Below the pieces are notes generated by a model that saw nothing but the letters and a program-made list of their open reading frames with translations, had not been told where the DNA came from and searched no databases. Shown piece after piece: positions 5,418-61,985 of a stretch of 64,000 nt of DNA. Both the position numbers and the translations under genes were made by a program. Source of the DNA: Aureococcus anophagefferens (Eukaryota > Sar > Pelagophyceae > Pelagomonadales > Pelagomonadaceae); the NCBI RefSeq assembly GCF_000186865.1, contig NW_008705562.1, positions 2,304,111 through 2,368,110 of the forward strand. The letters run 5' to 3'. Every line of letters starts with the position of its first letter. The stretch's first letter is position 1.

Positions 5418-7244
5418 ATGATGGAGGACTACGGGTGCTGGGCGAAGAAGCGGGGCGACGGCAAGTTCGACGCCTTCAAGGCGCGCTACTTCGTCGTCAC
5501 CGGCGCCGTCGTGGACTACTACGCCGGCCCCAAGACTGAGGGCCCCATCGACGCGCCGACCCTCGCGGCGAGCTACGAGGTCAAGGGCAGCATCGCCCTC
5601 GCGGAGGTGTCGGACTTCGCCGACGGCGCCGCGGGCAAGGACGGCGCCGTGCTCCGGCTCACGGCGCCGGACCGCGTCTTCGCGCTCGCCTTCGCGGACG
5701 GGGACGCGCGGCGCGCCTTTCGCGCGGCCGCGGAGCCGCGCGCGGCGCGCGCGGCGCTGCGCCGCGCGGCGGAGCTGCTCGCGGCCCGCGGCGTCGGCGA
5801 CGCGACCTACAGTGGGTGGATCACGAAAAAAGGGGGCAGCTCCGTCAAGTCGTGGAAGAAGCGGTTCGCGGTCTTCAAAGGCGGCGCGCTGTCGTACTAC
5901 GAGGACGAGGACCCCGCGAAGGCCGCCAAGGGGTCCGTGGACGTCGTCGGCGCCCACGCCTACGACGACGCCGACACGGCGCACCACGGCTACGGCCTCT
6001 TCGTCGACGTGCCCGCGGGCGGCAAGCAGGGCAGCAAAAGAGAGCGAAATTCCCAACTTCAAAGGCTCATATCTCGGCCGTTTCCCACTCGTTTTGGCTG
6101 ATTTTTGGACGAGCGATCATCTCTCGGAACGGTCTCGAAGCGTGGATGCTTCTTTCGGAACGCGCGCGCGCGGAACACTCACGTTGAAGCGACTTTGAAT
6201 CACTCTTGTGCTGCCCAGGCGGCAAGAAGCGGTCCGACGGCGCGTTCCTCATGTGCGCGCGGTCCGCGCCGGAGCGCGCCGCGTGGCTCGCGGCGCTCAG
6301 AGGCGACGACGCCCTCTTCGAGGCGGGCGCCCAGCTCGGCGCGTCCTTCGAGGGCGTGCTCGACTGCTCCAACGGCGGCGCGACCGCGCGGCGCTACGTC
6401 GTCCTGCGCGGCGGCCTCGCGGTCTTCTACGCGAACGAGGGCGACGCGCGCGCGAAGCGGCGGGCCGTCGGGTCCTGCTTCCTGCGGGGCGTGCGCGAGG
6501 GCGACGACGGCGCGTCGCGGCCCGCGTCGAGCTCCGTCGACGGCGCGGACTGCGTGCGGCCGTCCGTCGGCGGCGCGCGCGACGGCCGCGCGGAACTCAA
6601 ATCATCAACCCGACTTCCATGTGCTCGTACTCTTGACACAAACGCTTCGGCTGGGCTTCGAGAACCCGATGCGAGCCATCGATCCGTCCAAAAATCAGCC
6701 GAATCGACTTCGATGTGACCGAGCTCGAGCATTTCAAAGTTCGGTCGGGACGTCCCGAACCGGCGGTCGATGTCCACGCAGGCGCGACGCGAACGGGTCG
6801 TTTCCCGCGATGTTCGCCTTCACGCTCGTGCCCGAGCGCGCCAAGGCGCCTTGCGTCGTCGCAAGGGCACCCACGGGCGACGCCTTCGACGCCTGGCTCG
6901 CGGCCCTGCGCGGCGCCGTCGCCAATATTTTGGCGCCGCTCGACGACGGCGACGCGGCCGCGGCGCCGATCGACGACTTCCCCGAGCCCGCGGCGGACGA
7001 CGACGACGACGACGACGAGGGCGTCGCGAACCCCATCGCCGCGGAGGCCGAGGCCCCCGCGCCGGCGGGCGAGCCGCCGACGCCGGCCTGGCGGCCCTCG
7101 GAGACGGGCGTCGAGCTGAACCGGTGGCCGTCCGCGGACGGCGAGCGGAAGCCCCGCGCCAAGGTCGCGCCCATCCTCCTCGACAAGAAGGACGGCGGCG
7201 GCGACGGCGACGACTGCGGGAAGGTCTGCTGCGTCGTCGCGTGA
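5418..7244 (+). CDS. triple PH-domain protein with C-terminal CaaX box
   Basis: Three exons (5418-6018, 6219-6576, 6782-7244) close exactly to 473 aa. PH domains: first at about 1-115 (GCWAKKRGDGKFDAFKARYFVV), second at about 130-235 (YSGWITKKGGSSVKSWKKRFAVF, rejoined across an introner to SDGAFLMCARSAPERAAWLAAL), third at about 245-385 (ASFEGVLDCSNGGATARRYVVL, rejoined to FAFTLVPERA and DAFDAWLAALRGAV). The protein ends KVCCVVA, a prenylation-type CaaX motif, so lipid anchoring plus phosphoinositide binding is likely. Start: an in-frame ATG pair at 5418/5421; the open frame runs far upstream but is antisense to the WWE gene there. Both introns are repeated introner elements. The PH fold pairs across both splices support the models. 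Specific partners are unknown. Confidence 0.8.
6019..6218 (+). mobile_element. family 1 introner (200-bp intron)
   Basis: The left direct repeat GCGGCAAG (6019-6026) is repeated exactly at 6219-6226, after the terminal CAG. The core (192 bp) begins CAGGGCAGCAAAAG and ends CTTGTGCTGCCCAG, a terminal inverted repeat. Removing 6019-6218 as a GC-AG intron restores the PH domain. The same core, diverged, recurs at 59968-60159 and, inverted, at 42277-42468. Confidence 0.9.
6577..6781 (+). mobile_element. family 2 introner (205-bp intron)
   Basis: GCGCGACG at 6577-6584 is repeated exactly at 6782-6789, after CACGCAG. Excision gives GGARDANGSF and continues PH domain 3. The interior is the reverse complement of the family 2 copy at 38702-38902 and includes the 17-mer TCGTCCAAAAATCAGCC in slightly diverged form, shared with family 1. 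Confidence 0.85.
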
Positions 7245-32808: not shown

Positions 32809-34362
32809 TCAGGCCTCGCGCCCCAGGTCAATGCCGCCGCTGGGCAGGAAGGTCTCGCGCGCCGCCTGGGTCGGGGACCGCGCCCTGGAACGCAAGGACT
32901 CCCTCGCGGGGCCCCTGAACACGCAGGAGTAGCTCGTCAAGCCGGCGGCGGCGTTCCTCGAGAACGCGTCGGAGACGCCGTCGAGCCTCTGCGGCGTCCT
33001 GGCCATGCCGCCGTAGGGCAGGAAGGTCTCGCGCGCCGCCTGGGTCGGGAACCACGCCCTGGAACGCAAGGATTCCCTCGCGGGGGCCCAGAACACGCAG
33101 GAGTAGCTCGTCAAGCCGGCGGCGGCGTTCCTCGAGAACGCGTCGGAGACGCCGTCGAGCCTCTGCGGCGTCCTGGCCATGCCGCCGTAGGGCAGGAAGG
33201 TCTCGCGCGCCGCCTGGGTCGGGGACCACGCCCTGGAACGCAAGGATTCCCTCGCGGGGGCCCAGAACACGCAGGAGTAGCTCGTCAAGCCGGCGGCGGC
33301 GTTCCTCGAGAACGCGTCGGAGACGCCGTCGAGCCTCTGCGGCGTCCTGGCCATGCCGCCGCTGGGCAGGAAGGTCTCGCGCGCCGCCTGGGTCGGGGAC
33401 CACGCCCTGGAACGCAAGGATTCCCTCGCGGGGCCCCTGAACACGCAGGAGTAGCTCGTCAAGCCGGCGGCGGCGTTCCTCGAGAACGCGTCGGAGACGC
33501 CGTCGAGCCTCTGCGGCGTCCTGTTCTTGAACATCTTTTTGTGCTTATCCAGCGCCATCAAGACGTGCGACTTGCAGCGGCCGTCGATCGGCGGCAGATT
33601 CGGCGTGGCCTGGTATGTGTCGGGTTTTTGGCCAGTCAAGCGCAGGTGGACCAGCGACGATGCCATCGCACCCACAAAATCCTGTGGCGAGCTGGCCTCT
33701 CGGACAAATGCCACAAAATCCTCCAGCGGGCCTTTGCGCAGGAGCTGCATCGTTGCGATTATTGAAGCAATTACACGCGATGGACGCGCTCCGAGCGTGG
33801 CCGAGTCCGCAGTGGTGAAGGTGTCTCTCTGCAGTAGGTGATTGCGTGGGACGGGTTCTTCGGGCCATTGAGGCGGATTCAGCACATTTCCTACTGCAGC
33901 GGCCGACGCCGTGAAGTCGGCGTTCCGGGCCTCCATGGGGACGACGAAACGGCCGAGATCGGCACCGCGGGGTGGCCCTCCACCGCTGGAGATGTACTCG
34001 ATCCCACCGGACACATACTGGGGACGGGGCTCGGGCGGTGGTGTCGGCCCAGACCGCGTTTCTGGACGTGGGGGCCGCTCGGGCTGCCGCGCCACGTTTC
34101 TATGCGCGAGTTGGCGGTCGATGTTTTCGACGTCGATGGCCGAGCGGATCAAATGGGACGCCCGCGGTACATAGACGAACGATTCCCGATGCTCCGTGCG
34201 CTCGAACACGGTCGAAAAGGGTGCGGGGGACGCCGAAAACCCTCTTCCGACCCCTTGGGACGCCCCGCGCGCGATGCGACGCAATCCTCGGGAGTGACAT
34301 CCCGCGGGGAATGTGTCCGCGACAGGGTTCCGGTCCTCGCAGCCGCGGGGATCGTTGCGCAA
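32809..34362 (-). CDS. ORF with four 58-residue repeats inside the TIR element
   Basis: Up to 517 codons are open; there is no ATG at the far upstream end, so the true start is unknown and an upstream exon is possible. Residues about 1-275 are unique (DNFVxx-free; segments PRPQYVSGGIEYISSGGGPP and PQDFVGAMASSLVHLRLTGQ) and are not recognised. Residues 276-507 are four nearly identical 58-aa repeats beginning RTPQRLDGVSDAFSRNAAAG and ending ETFLPSGGMA. The protein ends GGIDLGREA. The repeats could be structural or simply recent DNA amplification. Confidence 0.45.
   Translation of the reverse strand: MRNDPRGCEDRNPVADTFPAGCHSRGLRRIARGASQGVGRGFSASPAPFSTVFERTEHRESFVYVPRASHLIRSAIDVENIDRQLAHRNVARQPERPPRPETRSGPTPPPEPRPQYVSGGIEYISSGGGPPRGADLGRFVVPMEARNADFTASAAAVGNVLNPPQWPEEPVPRNHLLQRDTFTTADSATLGARPSRVIASIIATMQLLRKGPLEDFVAFVREASSPQDFVGAMASSLVHLRLTGQKPDTYQATPNLPPIDGRCKSHVLMALDKHKKMFKNRTPQRLDGVSDAFSRNAAAGLTSYSCVFRGPARESLRSRAWSPTQAARETFLPSGGMARTPQRLDGVSDAFSRNAAAGLTSYSCVFWAPARESLRSRAWSPTQAARETFLPYGGMARTPQRLDGVSDAFSRNAAAGLTSYSCVFWAPARESLRSRAWFPTQAARETFLPYGGMARTPQRLDGVSDAFSRNAAAGLTSYSCVFRGPARESLRSRARSPTQAARETFLPSGGIDLGREA
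32831..33526. repeat. four tandem 174-bp repeats
   Basis: Unit starts at 32831, 33005, 33179 and 33353, always 174 bp apart, with only a few differences per copy (for example GCTGGGCAGG versus GTAGGGCAGG, GGGGCCC versus GGGGGCC). Each encodes 58 residues in the minus-strand ORF. Third codon positions are as conserved as the others. Confidence 0.95.
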
Positions 34363-37465: not shown

Positions 37466-40167
37466 ATGGCCTACCGCTTCGCGTCCATCGCCGCCTGCGC
37501 GGCGTCGACGGCCCTGAGGAGCCGCTGCCTCGAGGCGAAGGACGACAGCGGCGACGACGGCCGGTTCACTGTGTTCCTCGACATCGACGGCGTGCTCAAC
37601 AGCGCGAAGACGCGCGCCGAGGGCGACGCGGCGTTCCCCGACGCGGACACGCCCGCGCGCCACGCGCCGGACCCGGCCATGGTCGCGCGGCTCGCGCGCG
37701 CGATCCGCGACGGCGAGCGGCGGACGGGCCGCGGCTGCCGCCTCGTGCTCAGCAGCACGTGGCGCCTCCGGGGCGACGCGCTCGAGGCCGCCGAGGCGGC
37801 GCTCGGGCGCGCGGGGCTCGGCGTCGACGCCGTGACGCCGGACTACAGCGCCGCGGGCACGGAGAATTTGATCGACGGCCTCTTCAACGCGATGGACACG
37901 CCGAACAACGTCGTGCCCAACGAGGCCGCGGGCGACCGCGTCGACGAGATCTTCAGCGTCGTGAACCGCCTGGGCCTGCGAAAGCGCGGCGGCGTCTGGA
38001 TCGTCGTCGACGACCTCAACCTCCCCTGGCGGAACCCGCGGCTGCCCCGGGACCGCTTCGTGCGGACGAACGACGCGTTGGGGTTCACGGACGACAAGGC
38101 CGACGAGGCCGTCGCGAAGCTCGTCTGCCTGCACACGGGCGAGCCCTGGGAGGGCTGCGAGACCTGGGACGCGAAATGGGCGCGGAGCTGGGACGCCGCG
38201 TGGGCCCTCATCGACAACGGCCGCGGCGGCGACGCCGTCGACGACGAGGTCCCCGGCTTCGCGGTGCCGCGGCGGCGGCTCGTGCGCTTCGGAGGCGACG
38301 GCGCCGACTTCAAACGGTCCTACAGGGAGCTCCGCGAGGTCGGCCGCGGCGGCTACGGCCGCGTGTCCGTGGCGACGCACGCGGTGACGATGCAGCGGCG
38401 CGCCGTGAAGCGCATGACCGCGCGGCACCCGCGCGCGCACTTCTGGCTCCGCGCGCCGGCGGGCGCCGCGGCCTGGGACGCGGCCTGGGCGCTCGTGGAC
38501 AACGAGGACCCGGACGACGGCTGGGACGCCTACCTGGGGTTCCTGGACAACGGCCGCGGCGGGCTCCGGCCCGAGCCGCCGCGGCCGGCGAAGCCGCCGG
38601 CGACGGTGCCCGCGGAGGTCGCGGCGCTCGTGGAGCTGGACCACCCCCACGTCGTCAAGCTCCACGAGTACTACGTCGCCGACGACGGCGAGCGATCATC
38701 TGTGTGGAAATCAACCAGTGGAACGCCCTGTCCAGCAAAAACTTCAAACCTCTCTATCTCGATCAAATCGAAGTCGATTCGGCTGATTTTTGGACGAATC
38801 GATCGCTCTCGTCGAGTTCTCGAAGCACAGCCGAAGATCTTGCGTCGAAACTGTCGCATTCATTCACATTGAAGTCGGGTTGAAGATTTGATTTCCACGC
38901 AGGCTCATCCTCGTCATGGAGTACCTCGGCGGCGGCACGCTCCTCGAGCGCGTCGCCGCGTCCGGCGGCGGCATGGACGGCGCGGCCGCGGCGTCCGCGC
39001 TCAAGGCCATGCTCAGCGCCGTCGTCTGCTGCCACGCGCGGGGCCTCGTCCGCGGCGGCGTCCCGGGGCCGCGGCGACGGTCGAGAGCGTTCGACCGGGG
39101 GAACGACGGCGCGTCGCCACCGCCGCGCGCGGTAGGTCCACGGCGACCTCAAGCCGGACAACTTCTGCTACGACGACGACGTCGTCAAGCTCATCGACTT
39201 TGGCATGAGCAAGGACGTCGAGGCCGAGGCGCTCGAGACGCTGCAGGCCGGGTCGCTCGCGTACACGGCGCCGGAGACCTTCGACGCGGGCTACGGCGCG
39301 CCGTCGGACGTCTGGGCGCTCGGGTGCATGTTCTTCCAGATGGTCACGGGCGAGCTGCTCATCGAGGGCCTCTGCGGCGGCGAGGTCGTGACGGCGTTCG
39401 GCGGCGTCAAGGTGACGGCCGACGACGACGCGCGCCGCGCGGTCTGCGACGCCGCGGCGATCGCGCGGCGCCTCGAGGCCAAGGCGCGGCCGAAGCTCGA
39501 CGCCGCGGGCTTCGACCTGCTGGCGCGCATGCTCGCGCCGGACCCGGAGCGGCGCGCGACGGCGGCGGCGGCGCTCGCGCACCCGTGGGTCCGCCGCGGC
39601 GCGCGGACCGCGGCCGCGGACGCGCTCGACGGCGACCTCGTGCCGAAGCTGCGGCGCTTCGCGGCGCTGCCCGCGCTCCTGCGCACGGCCGTGCTCATCG
39701 AGGCCCACGCGGCCGTGCGCGAGGAGGCGACGCACCGCGAGGCGGCGACGTTCGAGGCCGTCGACGCGGACGCGGACGGCGTGCTCGACGCCGACGACCT
39801 CCGCCGGGCCCTCGCGGGGCGCGGGGTCGCCGCGCCCGACGACCTCGGCGACGTCGTCCGCGCCTGCGACGTGTCCAAGTCCGGGAACCTCACGTTGAAC
39901 GAATTCACGGCCGCGACGATGAGCCCGCGGCTCTTCACGCGCGAGGACCTCAGCGACGCGGCCTTCGCGGCCATGGACGGCGACGGCGACGGCGTCATCT
40001 CGCCCGCGGACCTCGAGCGCCTCCTCAGCGACTCGCCGACGCGCGCGGCCGTCGCGCGCGCCGTCCTCGCGGAGGTCGGCGCGGACGGCGGCTGCGACCG
40101 CGCGCGCTTCGACGAGGTCGTCCGCGCCGCGAGCCTCACGGCGGGCTGGCGGCCCGCGGCGTCCTAG
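37466..40167 (+). CDS. HAD-like domain / protein kinase / EF-hand fusion
   Basis: Three exons (37466-38691, 38903-39047, 39136-40167) close exactly to 800 aa. Residues about 30-190 look like a HAD-type hydrolase: FTVFLDIDGVLNSAK, LVLSSTWRLRGD, VWIVVDDLN. The kinase begins about 280: glycine loop VGRGGYGRVS, AVKRM lysine, VMEYLGGGTLLERV, catalytic VHGDLKPDN (Gly in place of the usual Arg, a non-RD form), LIDFGMSK and YTAPETF. Three or four EF-hands follow (DADADGVLD, VSKSGNLTLNEF, DGDGDGVISPAD), as in plant and protist CDPKs. A WDAAWAL(I/V)DN segment occurs twice between HAD and kinase. A Ca2+-regulated kinase is expected; the HAD role is unknown. Introns 1 and 2 are introners. Confidence 0.8.
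38692..38902 (+). mobile_element. family 2 introner (211-bp intron)
   Basis: The core runs from TGTGTGGAAATCAA to TTTGATTTCCACGCAG, a terminal inverted repeat. The left copy GC(GA)TCATCT (38692-38701) and right copy GCTCATCC (38903-38910) look like one 8-bp duplication with a 2-bp insertion on the left. Excision gives DDGE|LILVMEYL, normal kinase spacing. It contains GGCTGATTTTTGGACGA, shared with family 1. Confidence 0.85.
39048..39135 (+). mobile_element. family 3 introner (88-bp intron)
   Basis: GTCCGCGG (39048) and GTCCACGG (39136) are 7/8 direct repeats. The interior shares GTCGAGAGCGTTCGACCGGG with the copy at 52864-52951 and ends CGCGGTAG. Excision gives CHARGL|VHGDLKPDN; use of a GT 12 bases inside would break the kinase catalytic loop spacing. 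Confidence 0.85.
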
Positions 40168-41447: not shown

Positions 41448-42847
41448 ATGCGCGCCGCGCTGCTCGTCCTCGCCGCCGCCCAACGCGCCGCCGCCCTCAG
41501 CTCGCAGCCGCCCTTCGAGGACTGCGTGCCGGGCTACCCGGCGTGGCACGTCTGGCGCGTGTTTTCCAGCCACACGGCCGTCGTCGAGGGCGAGAACCTG
41601 CGGCGCCTGCGCGTCACGCGCAAATCGCTGGACAGCTCCGTCGCGACGTTCGCGAGCTACGTCGCGCGGCGCGTGGTCCACGGCGCCGCGGAGCTGCACT
41701 ACGAGGACCCCGTCGTCGGCTGCCCCGCGCCGTGGGCGTCGGACGCGACGCGGTGCGCGCTCCACTTCTCGCCCTTCGCGCGCGCGTGCGTCCGCGTCGA
41801 GGCGCGGCGCCGCTTCCGCCTCGGCGTCGACCGCAACGCGTCCGTGACCTGGGGCGACGCGTCGACGGCGCGCCAGCGGCGCGCGCTCTTCTTCGGCGCG
41901 GCCGTGGCCATGCATCGGTCCGCGGCGACGATCTCCGAGGCGTACCAGCTCCACTACGCCATGGGCGTCGGCACGGGCGTCATCTTCGCCGCGGTGCTCC
42001 TCGTCGCGCTGCTCCTGTCGCAGGTCTCGACGACGCCGACGCGGCGGCGGGGCCTCGTCGTGGCGACGACGCTCGGCTACGGCCTCGCGGTCTGGAAGTA
42101 CTTCTTCCGGGTCGCGGTGCACGGCCTCGCGGCCTGGCCGCGCGTCACGGCGACCTACGTCGCCGTCGCCGCGGGCGCGTCGGTCCTCGCGACGCGCTAC
42201 GTGCGCTCGACGGCCATCTTCTTCGACGCGGTCAAGGGCGGCTGCCGCACGGCGGCGCTGCTCCTCGCGTTCCACGCAGAGCAGGGAAAGAGTGATTCAA
42301 CGTCGCTTCAACGTGAGGGTTCCGCACGCGATTGTTCCAAAGGAAGGATCCACGCGTCGAGAGCGCTCCGAGAGATAATCGTTCGTCCAAGAATTAGCCG
42401 AAACGAGTGGAAAATGACCGAGATAGGAGCCTTTGAAGTTGGGAATTTCGCACTCTTTTCCTGCCCAGGTTCCACGCGACGCGGTCCGTCGGCTACGGCC
42501 TCGTCGCCGTCCTGGGCTTCGCGTACGCCGGCCTGACGGACGCGGACCTGCCCTGGCGCGCGGCCCTCGGGGCCTTCGCGGCGCTGCTGGCCGGCGACGC
42601 CGCCGCGGCGCGCGCGCCGCCGCGGCGGTCCGCGGCCGCGGCCACGCCGCCGCGCGACGGGAAGAACTTCCTCCACGGCCACCGCTTCCTGACCAAGGCC
42701 GAGTTCGACGACGAGGGCGAGCGCGCGACGCGCGACGCCGTCGCGGCGCTCGCGGCGACGCCCGCGTACGCCGCGTGGCTCGCGGAGAACCACGGCCGCC
42801 TCACCGTCGCGCCGGCCGCGAGAGGCGGGGACAGCGATAGCGACTAG
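41448..42847 (+). CDS. NEMP-family (DUF2215) nuclear envelope membrane protein
   Basis: Two exons (41448-42268, 42469-42847) close to 399 aa. Signal peptide MRAALLVLAAAQRAAAL. A luminal strand-rich region is followed by five or so spans (YAMGVGTGVIFAAVLLVALL, GLVVATTLGYGLAVWKYFF). The C-terminus (FLTKAEFDDEGERATRDAVA, PAYAAWLAENHGRL) matches the conserved tail of NEMP/TMEM194 proteins, where it faces the nucleoplasm. The family supports nuclear-envelope stiffness in animals. The intron is an inverted family 1 introner that splits a transmembrane segment. The tail ends SDSD. Confidence 0.78.
42269..42468 (+). mobile_element. family 1 introner, inverted copy (200-bp intron)
   Basis: GTTCCACG at 42269-42276 is repeated exactly at 42469-42476. 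The 192-bp core is the reverse complement of the copies at 6027 and 59968, showing that both orientations splice. The donor here is GT rather than GC. Confidence 0.9.
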
Positions 42848-59190: not shown

Positions 59191-61985
59191 ATGGCCACGC
59201 TCGTGACGGGCGCCGACACGCCCCTGGGGTACGCCGTGGCCCGGGCGCTCCTCGCCGCGGGGCAGGAGGTCGTCGCCCTCGTCGCCCCCGAGCCCCGCGG
59301 TCCCGTCTGCGCCTGCCTCGTGGCGACGGACGGCCCCCACGCCGGGGAGCGCTTCGCCCTCGGCATCGGGCCGGCCCCGCGCTTCGTCGGGCGGTCCGCG
59401 GCCCACGGCGAGGGCGGCGTCTGCCTCGGCCGCGACGGGAGCGCGTCGGGCACGCACGCGCGTCTCGAGGCGTCCGGCGCGGACGTGGTCGTCGCCGACT
59501 GCGGGTCGACGAACGGGACCCTCGTCGACGGGCGCCCCGTCGGCGCCGGCGAGCGGATCCCCCTGCGCGTCGGGTCCTGCCTGGCCCTCGGCGCCACGGT
59601 GCTCCACGTCGTCGCGCTCGCGTCGGAGCGGTCGCTCGCGCTCGAGGCCCTCGCGGCCGACGGCGCGGTCATCGTCGACGCCCTGGCGCAGACGGCGGCC
59701 CAGGGCGTGCGCCGCGTCGCCCACTGCGCCGCGCCCCTGGCGTCGCCGGAGGCCGAGCGCGCGGCCGTCGCGGCGGCCGCGGCCGCCGCGCGCGGCGGGC
59801 CCGTCGCCGCCGCGTCGTCGGCCGCGGTCTACGAGGGCTGCAAGGCCGCGCGCCGCGGGCGGCCCCTCGTCGAGTCCGAGTTCCTGCCGCGCGAGAGCTG
59901 CGGCGCGTCGCCCGAGGCCGCGCGGGAGGAGGCTTTATGGGGCGCGGCCGCGGGCCGCGGCGACCGCCAGGGCAGCAAAAGAGAGCGAAATTCCCAACTT
60001 CAAAGGCTCATATCTCGGCCGTTTTCCACTCGTTTTGGCTGATTTTTGGACGAGCGATCATCTCTCGGAGCGGTCTCGACGCGTGGGCGCTTTTTCCGGA
60101 ACGCGCGCGCGCGGAACACTCACGTTGAAGCGACGTTGAATCACCCTTTTGCTGCCCAGGCGACCGCGGCGCGGGCGTCGTCGCGGTGCGCCTCTTCGAC
60201 GTCTACGGCGGCGACGCCGACTGCGGCGCGGCGCCGGCGCCGGGCCTCGCGTCCCTGGCCCGGACCCTGGCGGGCGGCGGCGCGGACGAGCGCGAGCGCA
60301 CCTACTGCGGCGACGCGAGCCACGTCTCCGAGGCGGCGACGTGGCTCGTCGCCGCGCTCGAGCGCGCGGGGCACACGCGGGGCTTCGTGGCCGTCAACGG
60401 CGCCGCGGGCCACCTCGCGCGCGGGCCCGACGTCGCCCGCGCCGCGAGCGCCGCGCGGAGCCGCGGCGAGGTCGGCCGGCGGCGGAGCGACTCGGGCGGT
60501 GGCCCGCCGCCGCCGCCGCCCGCGTCGCCGCCGGGCCGGCCCGCGTCGCCGCGGGAGCGCCGGCGCGCGCCGCTGCGCGCGGACCTCGCCAAGATGCGCG
60601 CGCTCCTCGGCGTCGCCGCGGGCCGCGTGTCCGTCCGCGACGGCCTCGGCCGCCTGCTCGCGGAGGACCGCGCCGCCGCGGACCGGCGCCTGCGCCACCT
60701 CAAGCCCCTCGAGAGCCGGGCGGCGCCGTCGCCGGCGAGCCTCGTGGCGCGCGTCGCGAGCTTCCTGCTCGCGCCCGTGCGCCGCGCGGCCGCGCGGCCG
60801 CCGCGCGATCGGCCGAGCCGCCTCGCGTCGCTCGACGACGACGTCGCCGCGGCCGCGCTCGCCTTCTGCGACGCCGTCTCCCTCGCCCAAGTCCGCGCCG
60901 CGGGCAACTGGCGCGCGCGGGGCGGGCTGCTCGTCGCCGACGAGGCCGCGCGGCGCCTCTGCGCGGCGCGGGGATGGACGCGCGCGGACGCGCGGCGGCG
61001 CCCGTTCTCGTGGCTCTACGGCCGCGCGGGCGTCTGGCGAAATCCCGTGGCCCTGGCGTCCGTCGGCGCCGCCGCCGACGAGACGCGGTCGGCCCTCACG
61101 GCGACGCGCATCGGCGGCGCCGTCTACTGCTTCGGCGGCCTCGACGCCGCGGGCGAGCCGACGAACGACGTCCGCGCGCTCGCGCTCGCGGACGCGACGC
61201 TCGGCGAGTGGCGGCCCGTGGCGACGACGGGGAAACCGCCGGCGCCGCGCTTCGGCCACGGCGCCGCGCCCTGGGCCGGGGGCCTGGCCATCTTCGGCGG
61301 CCAGACGGCGCTCGGGCCGAGCGACGACCTCCACGTGCTCGCGCTCCCGGATCGCGCGTGGTCCGCGCCGGCGGCGCCGGGGCCGCGGCCGCCGCCGCGC
61401 GCCTTCGGCGCCGTCGCGTGCCTCGACGGGAAGCTCGTCGTCTGGGGCGGCGCGGCCGACGACCGCGTCTGGTGCCGCGAGCGGCCCGCGGCGCCGTGGC
61501 GCGCGCTCGCCGACGGGCAAAACGCGCCGCCGCCGCGGACCGCGGCGGCGGCCTGCGCGCTGGCGACGGCCGACGGCGAGGCGCTCGTCGTGTCCGGGGG
61601 GCGCTGCCAGGGCGCCGTGCTCCCCGTCGACGACGCGATCGCGCTGACGCTCCGCGGCGACGGCGGCGCGTTGGCCGCGGCGTGGGCGCCCTTCGGCCCG
61701 ACGTCGCACGACCCCCGGGGCGACGCCTGCAGCCACCACGCGGCCGTCGCCCTCGACGGCGACGCCGTGCTCTGCGTCGGGGGCCTCGGCGACGACGGCG
61801 CCACGCACGGCCGCGCGACGATCCTGTCCGCGGCGCGGCCGCCCGCGCGCCTCGCGGCCAACGGCAGCCCGCGGCCCAAGCGCCTCCACGCCGCCGCCCG
61901 GGCGCGGGGCGACGCGGTCCTCCTCTTCGGCGGCCTCGACGGCCTCCGCCGCCTCGACGACCTCGAGCTCCTCGCGCTCAAGTGA
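59191..61985 (+). CDS. SDR fold with embedded FHA domain, F-box-like region and Kelch repeats
   Basis: Two exons (59191-59959, 60160-61985) close to 864 aa. Residues 1-30 are a dinucleotide-binding start (LVTGADTPLGYAVARALLAA). An FHA domain sits inside the fold at about 66-150 (RFVGRSAAHGEGGVCLGRDG, SGTHARLEASG, DCGSTNGTLVDGRPV). The epimerase-like fold resumes (RRVAHCAAPLASPEA, VAAASSAAVYEG, VAVRLFDVYGGDAD) but the catalytic Tyr-x3-Lys position has no Tyr, so it is probably not an active epimerase. An F-box-like helix region follows (SLDDDVAAAALAFCDAVSLA) and then five or six Kelch blades (GGAVYCFGGLDAAGEPTNDV, GGLAIFGGQTALGPSDDL). FHA recognises phosphothreonine; F-box-Kelch suggests a ubiquitin-ligase adaptor. 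Function inferred only. Confidence 0.72.
59960..60159 (+). mobile_element. family 1 introner (200-bp intron)
   Basis: GCGACCGC at 59960-59967 is repeated exactly at 60160-60167. The 192-bp core starts CAGGGCAGCAAAAGAG and ends CTTTTGCTGCCCAG. It is nearly identical, same orientation and same length, to the copy at 6027-6218. Confidence 0.92.

Follow-up and report, generated by a model that had tools for sequence, protein, structure and literature searches.

Transposon-like introners of Aureococcus anophagefferens appear to carry their own 3' splice site and to take GC or GT donors from the duplicated target

Three 200-bp segments in the 64,000-nucleotide stretch of the Aureococcus anophagefferens genome that we analysed (hereafter the window) are very probably introners, each a short, non-autonomous, MITE-like DNA transposon of 192 bp that is spliced as an intron. 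The initial annotation had placed three introns at 6019-6218, 42269-42468 and 59960-60159 and had described them as copies of one mobile element between exact 8-bp direct repeats. These coordinates and the length of 200 bp held for all three, as did the 192-bp core and the repeats (GCGGCAAG, GTTCCACG and GCGACCGC), and each intron corresponds to the core plus one copy of the target-site duplication (TSD). The features are listed here by position, strand and content.

5421..7244, +, host gene 1 (PH domains), starting at MEDYG and running to the stop, with more introns possible inside
6019..6218, +, introner-intron 1, class F body, GC-AG, in the gene with PH domains
6019..6026, +, upstream 8-bp TSD copy GCGGCAAG, belonging to intron 1 and predicted source of its GC donor
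6027..6218, +, 192-bp mobile core of intron 1, with ends CAGGGCAGCAAAAGAG ... CTCTTGTGCTGCCCAG
6219..6226, +, downstream TSD copy GCGGCAAG, predicted to stay as exon
6630..6756, -, diverged relative of the introner family, inside host gene 1 (nhmmer E 2.7e-7)
38720..38900, +, diverged relative of the introner family (nhmmer E 1.4e-10)
41448..42847, +, host gene 2, open from ATG to stop (399 aa) after removal of the introner
42269..42468, +, introner-intron 2, class R (inverted body), GT-AG, in the gene for a NEMP-like protein
42269..42276, +, upstream TSD copy GTTCCACG with the predicted GT donor
42277..42468, -, 192-bp core of intron 2, inverted body orientation
42469..42476, +, downstream TSD copy GTTCCACG
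59960..60159, +, introner-intron 3, class F, GC-AG, host gene has an FHA match and weakly matches an epimerase
59960..59967, +, upstream TSD copy GCGACCGC with the predicted GC donor
59968..60159, +, 192-bp core of intron 3
60160..60167, +, downstream TSD copy GCGACCGC

Identity between copies 1 and 3 is 93% over 204 nt, and copy 2 matches both at 85-86% in reverse complement, which bears out the earlier claim of shared sequence with one copy inverted. The terminal inverted repeats that had also been described need one qualification, since base 2 is an exception to the inverted symmetry of the arms. CAG stands at the upstream end, and the downstream end gives CTG when read inwards, so that in intron sense CAG stands at both ends; this base-2 mismatch between the arms is the predicted 3' splice site. 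A profile made from 99 copies of the family (described below) recovered the three copies in the window at E-values of 1.7e-69, 3e-69 and 3.8e-59, together with four further rows at E 0.045 to 6.2, while the reversed window yielded nothing up to E 10. The diverged relatives at 38720-38900 and 6630-6756, the latter in the same gene as intron 1, suggest that older or sister families of introners exist alongside this one.

Genome-wide, a 25-base core motif with at most 3 mismatches occurred 893 and 897 times on the two strands of the 49.05-Mb, 86-contig assembly, in which the window spans C2:2304111-2368110. These 1,790 occurrences compare with none on either strand for the reversed control pattern, and the many further copies expected of a mobile element are thus present. 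A 23-base core had no exact match among viral and prokaryote contigs, a set from which records near the window's own genome may be absent. We assembled a sample from 90 of 100 listed zero-mismatch motif places, 8 other loci, the window, and neighbours in the same loci; after an end-finding script had removed 3 places without ends, 1 at an edge and 5 duplicates, 99 copies were left. They are near-identical introns at different gene positions, with a median pairwise identity of 0.91-0.93, and the core is exactly 192 bp long in 79 of them. Two R-class introners (L046 and L047, at C1:2490576 and 2490821) lie only 245 bp apart, with an exon of about 45 bp between them.

The 8-mers flanking the 99 cores were identical in 82 copies, matched at 7 of 8 positions in 9 and at fewer in 8, that is, a duplication of fixed length as made by TIR transposons. 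The arms behave as TIRs as well: positions 3-14 pair at 95.4% (95 copies), compared with 89.5% when arms were shuffled between copies. The variable arm positions 9 and 11 match within a copy in 86% and 80% of cases against an expected 51%, and positions 15 and 17 match barely above expectation, in a table of the 91 of 99 copies that passed a filter on bases 1 and 3. Matched arms fit a transposase that needs matched ends, correction between the arms, or a role of the hairpin in splicing; a fold with at least 8 terminal stem pairs was predicted for 94 of 95 introns.

The predicted donor, which is the first two bases of the TSD, was GC in 59, GT in 34, GA in 2 and GG in none of 95 well-anchored copies (the other 4 of the 99 read CG, TT, CT and CC and were taken as shifted anchors or poor TSDs). 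Every one of the 95 TSDs thus begins with G, and 93 begin with GY. GC or GT is found at the TSD end away from the AG in both orientations (66 of 71 F copies and 27 of 28 R copies), so this is not simply a target preference of the body. Measured against the dinucleotide background of the flanks, which was not phase-matched, acceptance of GT, GC, GA and GG stood at about 1 : 0.47 : 0.04 : 0, and on the same background GT was enriched among GY donors (p 0.0008). Positions +3 to +8 add little signal: G is raised at +3 (p 0.002), C or T is raised and G lowered at +5 (p 0.010), and A and T are depleted at exon position -1 (p 9e-5), all before any correction for multiple positions. A GTRAGT consensus does not emerge at the donors of the introner copies.

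Next, we asked whether the genes read through these sites as if the elements were introns. Removing intron 1 joins a PH domain (PF00169, 1.6e-19, residues 128-226) in which the junction falls at residue 198. Across junction 2 a NEMP match (PF10225, residues 142-373, junction at 273) reached 8.3e-06, below the curated cut-off, and across junction 3 a weak Epimerase match (PF01370, residues 192-325, junction at 256) reached 0.0013, also below the cut-off. Left unspliced, copies 1 and 3 put a stop inside the element in all three frames; copy 2 puts stops in two, and the gene's own frame passes through it stop-free and then departs from the protein frame.

For the 99 copies, a model that had been trained on the window served to score codon usage in all six frames of both flanks. 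In 94 copies both flanks were coding on the strand in whose sense the element ends in CAG, and they were in phase after removal of one TSD and the core, meaning that the boundaries of the element are those of the intron and the frame is kept. Within the window the same strand and frame are expected at 71-74% of about 1,700 positions, and 94/99 against 74.2% gives P = 6e-8. Since the F and R classes are set from the element end itself, the coding-strand test is an independent check. The five failures (L046, L080 and L086 for frame, L095 and L097 for strand) all had flanks of about 150 bases. By donor, 59 of 59 GC copies and 31 of 34 GT copies were in phase, and among these an unspliced transcript would meet an in-frame stop within the intron in 54 of 59 and 23 of 31, respectively. 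Points in the flanks agreed with the introner sense in 32/38 cases upstream and 30/39 downstream at 400 bp, in 26/38 and 26/39 at 700 bp, and in 19/37 and 21/38 at 1000 bp; the coding-sense signal therefore declines with distance. Taken with the copy number, the site-specific TSDs and the two body orientations, the restored frame supports the original reading of these segments as DNA-transposon-like introners.

We propose the following course of events, in which splicing itself, a transposase acting in trans and selection as a filter are what we infer from the copies examined. A transposase from elsewhere would move the 192-bp element, and its insertion would duplicate 8 bp of the target. The element would bring the 3' splice site, its downstream arm being a pyrimidine-rich stretch that ends in CAG, and the 5' splice site would be the dinucleotide that opens the upstream target copy (GC or GT, in few cases GA). 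Splicing from the start of the upstream TSD to the AG of the element would excise 200 nt and leave one target copy, so that the mRNA would be restored. The pyrimidine tract can come from the body in either orientation, since the arms are inverted repeats, and base 2 of the downstream arm would have to yield AG. Selection would then remove copies that lack a usable donor or have their AG end upstream. Selection against bad genic insertions alone does not account for the scarcity of copies outside coding sequence: random insertion, if harmless outside genes, should place more copies there than the at most 5 of 99 seen here. Either gene bodies are favoured at insertion or copies elsewhere are lost. 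Introner enrichment in genes is given for 161 of 175 introner-bearing genomes in part of a survey (PMC9860276).

The splice-site end is tied to the other end of the element. The 99 copies comprise 71 with class F and 28 with class R bodies. In element sense their ends are CAG...CAG (51), CTG...CTG (23), CGG...CAG (16), CTG...CCG (3) or other (6), and, turned to intron sense, 97 copies have CAG and 2 have AGG downstream, with CAG (75), CGG (19) or another triplet (5) upstream. Base 2 and its mirror base form the pairs A/A (52), T/T (23), G/A (16), T/C (3) and other (5); A/T and T/A pairs did not occur among the 99 copies. The coupling at base 2 yields two mirror classes. Where both end bases are A or T, as in 75 copies, their r2 is 1.0, a figure that leaves out 24 copies with G or C at one or both ends. 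Changes at the upstream end are mostly of one kind, A to G at base 2 in 19/99, with base 1 other than C in 3 and base 3 other than G in 1; the G copies are about as diverged as the A copies (medians 0.046 and 0.039).

End searches in the whole genome gave the same picture. Among the 100 matches listed for an A-start, 59 joined an A-type 3' end and none a T-type, and among the 100 listed for a T-start, 67 joined a T-type and none an A-type. This joining is a partial check, since about 42 T-start places were within reach of listed A-type matches and ends mutated in the pattern cannot join. Genome-wide, the A and T forms numbered 758 and 365 for 3' ends and 704 and 424 for 5' ends.

The bodies are far less tightly linked than the ends, with a mean r2 of 0.05-0.13 by distance class and single pairs up to 0.74. 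This suggests recombination between copies, and recurrent mutation would act alike. On a tree made from the bodies only, the class changes 14 times, 5 of these forced by well-supported branches, against a mean of about 25 when classes are shuffled; resolution of this tree is poor, with 5 of its 96 inner branches starred and a bootstrap that had not settled. The nearest body relative belongs to the other class for 18 of 28 R copies (4 tie) and for 4 of 71 F copies (1 tie). Such mixing would follow from gene conversion that moves body sequence from one class to the other, and equally from a body that flips between the arms, and the data do not decide.

Both accounts are compatible with the introner reading, and we lean towards the first. 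F and R would each have arisen once from a symmetric, hAT-like CAG...CTG ancestor, through the change of a single base at one end for F and at the opposite end for R, and body gene conversion would later have mixed the sequences. The gap between the body linkage and the r2 of 1.0 at the ends points this way (with the caveat that recurrent mutation also lowers linkage), as does a copy with F ends on an R-like body (L061), which has a single difference from the R copy L012. On the other hand, the conversion tracts would have to stop short of the last bases again and again, and the symmetric form is absent among the 99 copies.

Alternatively, and we think this possible rather than probable, the CAG ends stay fixed while the body flips between the inverted arms by template switching or arm recombination, so that a resident intron switches class in one step. 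Such flipping would explain why A/T and T/A pairs are never seen among the 99 copies and why the arms vary in concert, and it fits the 14 class changes, 5 of them forced, and the F neighbours of so many R copies. The change counts, however, are inflated by a poorly resolved tree and low linkage, class is still clustered compared with the shuffled trees, few F copies have an R copy nearest, and the F majority favours F neighbours for R. A more speculative extension, which we regard as rather doubtful, is a modular introner: two fixed, strand-directed CAG ends around a repeatedly flipping body would stay spliceable either way, and the paired arms would bring the transcript into a fold in which nearly any GY that lies 8 bases upstream of the element could be used as the donor, giving GC-AG introns with almost no U1 consensus in a GC-rich genome.

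Two further explanations compete with the introner reading itself. Spread at the RNA level would mean that an intron, once excised, enters another transcript by reverse splicing and returns from there to the genome as a DNA copy. Copies would then lie in sense and in exons only, and this idea directly predicts the sense coding location seen in 94/99. An RNA copy would, however, bear the 8 bases of its donor gene, whereas the first 8 bases of the intron equal the new downstream exon at 8/8 positions in 82/99 copies; these per-site TSDs bring the idea close to refutation, and with the two body orientations and the terminal inverted repeats that carry matched variants on both arms, we consider it very improbable. 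Still harder to credit is an ordinary, unspliced MITE repeat in genes that are broken or mis-modelled, which agrees with splicing being a prediction here but not with the in-phase reading on both sides in 94/99, the GY rule at the TSD start, or a PH domain that is split by intron 1 and whole once spliced.

Returning to the introner as a DNA transposon, the hAT superfamily is characterized by an 8-bp TSD and CAGGG-type ends. The 8-bp TSD is present here and the upstream end is CAG in 75/99, and together with the CAGGG ends this suggests, by analogy, a hAT affiliation. The likeness to hAT-superfamily MITEs covers both features, but at one end the introner departs at base 2, which breaks the symmetry and would make the splice site. 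A 3-bp CWG duplication, which is Harbinger-like, was considered as the true TSD since in F and R copies alike the body stands between two CAG triplets; we do not favour it, because it leaves the outer 8-bp repeats unexplained and because body orientation is clustered on the tree, not free. Searches for a mover found no autonomous element with the introner TIR: a pattern of TIR plus other interior, which covers part of the possible interiors, gave one place, by eye seemingly an internally deleted introner, and this locus contributed no counted copy to the sample of 99. Neither the hAT (PF05699) nor the KDZ (PF18758) transposase model matched the genome, in searches where control genomes also gave none and there was no positive control.

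Introners are among the few known routes to bulk intron creation, and those of A. anophagefferens reportedly carry one splice site and co-opt the other from the duplicated target, as Huff, Zilberman and Roy are said to have described in 2016. The introner mechanism is thus already known; it is attributed to Huff et al. 2016 and surveyed in PMC9860276. Our copies resemble the A. anophagefferens introners of the literature, by features and as far as the excerpts go, in a characteristic length of about 210 bp (an excerpt of PMC9481584), in direct repeats and TIRs of constant length (a passage of PMC7789003), and in both orientations, whose report in the 2016 study is mentioned in a passage of PMC10228655; orientation per se is therefore not new. 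In the same passage of PMC7789003 their splicing motifs are described as canonical, whereas in our copies GC is the commoner donor and GT the rarer. In the portions of the introner literature searched we found no description of the end-base coupling or the donor ratios, which may still be published.

Other introners share some of these traits. As excerpted from PMC9860276, those of Symbiodinium microadriaticum have TIRs as here, with a TSD of 4 bp instead of 8 bp, and a family 4 introner of Aureococcus sp. TARA_AOS_82_MAG_00129 has the same 8-bp TSD; in that family the element brings both splice sites and the mRNA gains 12 bp, while here the frame is kept as if none were added. Amoebophrya introner elements, in the part of PMC7789003 that treats them, likewise have inverted repeats able to fold the intron ends together, but their direct repeats are 3-5 nt long and their splice sites non-canonical, in contrast to 8-bp repeats and GY-AG here.

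The family numbers more than 1,000 copies and has clean 8-bp duplications, which turns every copy into a natural experiment on the donor tolerance of the spliceosome. The tolerance seen in 95 copies bears on the abundance of GC-AG introns in A. anophagefferens, which an excerpt of PMC3033335 puts at 39.6% of introns, with an origin termed an enigma in 2011. The survey text available from PMC9860276 gives 0-50% GC donors per introner family, compared with 59/95 here. The same excerpt of PMC3033335 describes a canonical U1 5' end in this species. The Rfam U1 snRNA model had no match in the genome at E up to 1, in a search where three prokaryote controls matched below the cut-off, while the same tool found U6 snRNA at 7.3e-24. 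A U1 11-mer occurred at 2 places genome-wide, compared with 3 for the reversed pattern; Rfam gave no match at either locus up to E 1, and composition and folds at both gave no support for U1. The missing U1 match may reflect a gap in the assembly, a search that overlooked the gene or a difference between species. The loci concerned in the U1 and U6 searches are L100, L101 and L102; the stretches after the two 11-mer places have 41-44% GC compared with 72% in the window and may be contaminant or organelle DNA.

In the window itself no Rfam model matched at gathering scores. Four repeat copies at 174-bp spacing occupy 32831-33652; compared with the first over 300 nt, the second is 97% and the third 96% alike, and the fourth 68%. 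Against its 72% GC background the window also holds 47 AT-rich islands, which include the three introners; some of the others may mark introns.
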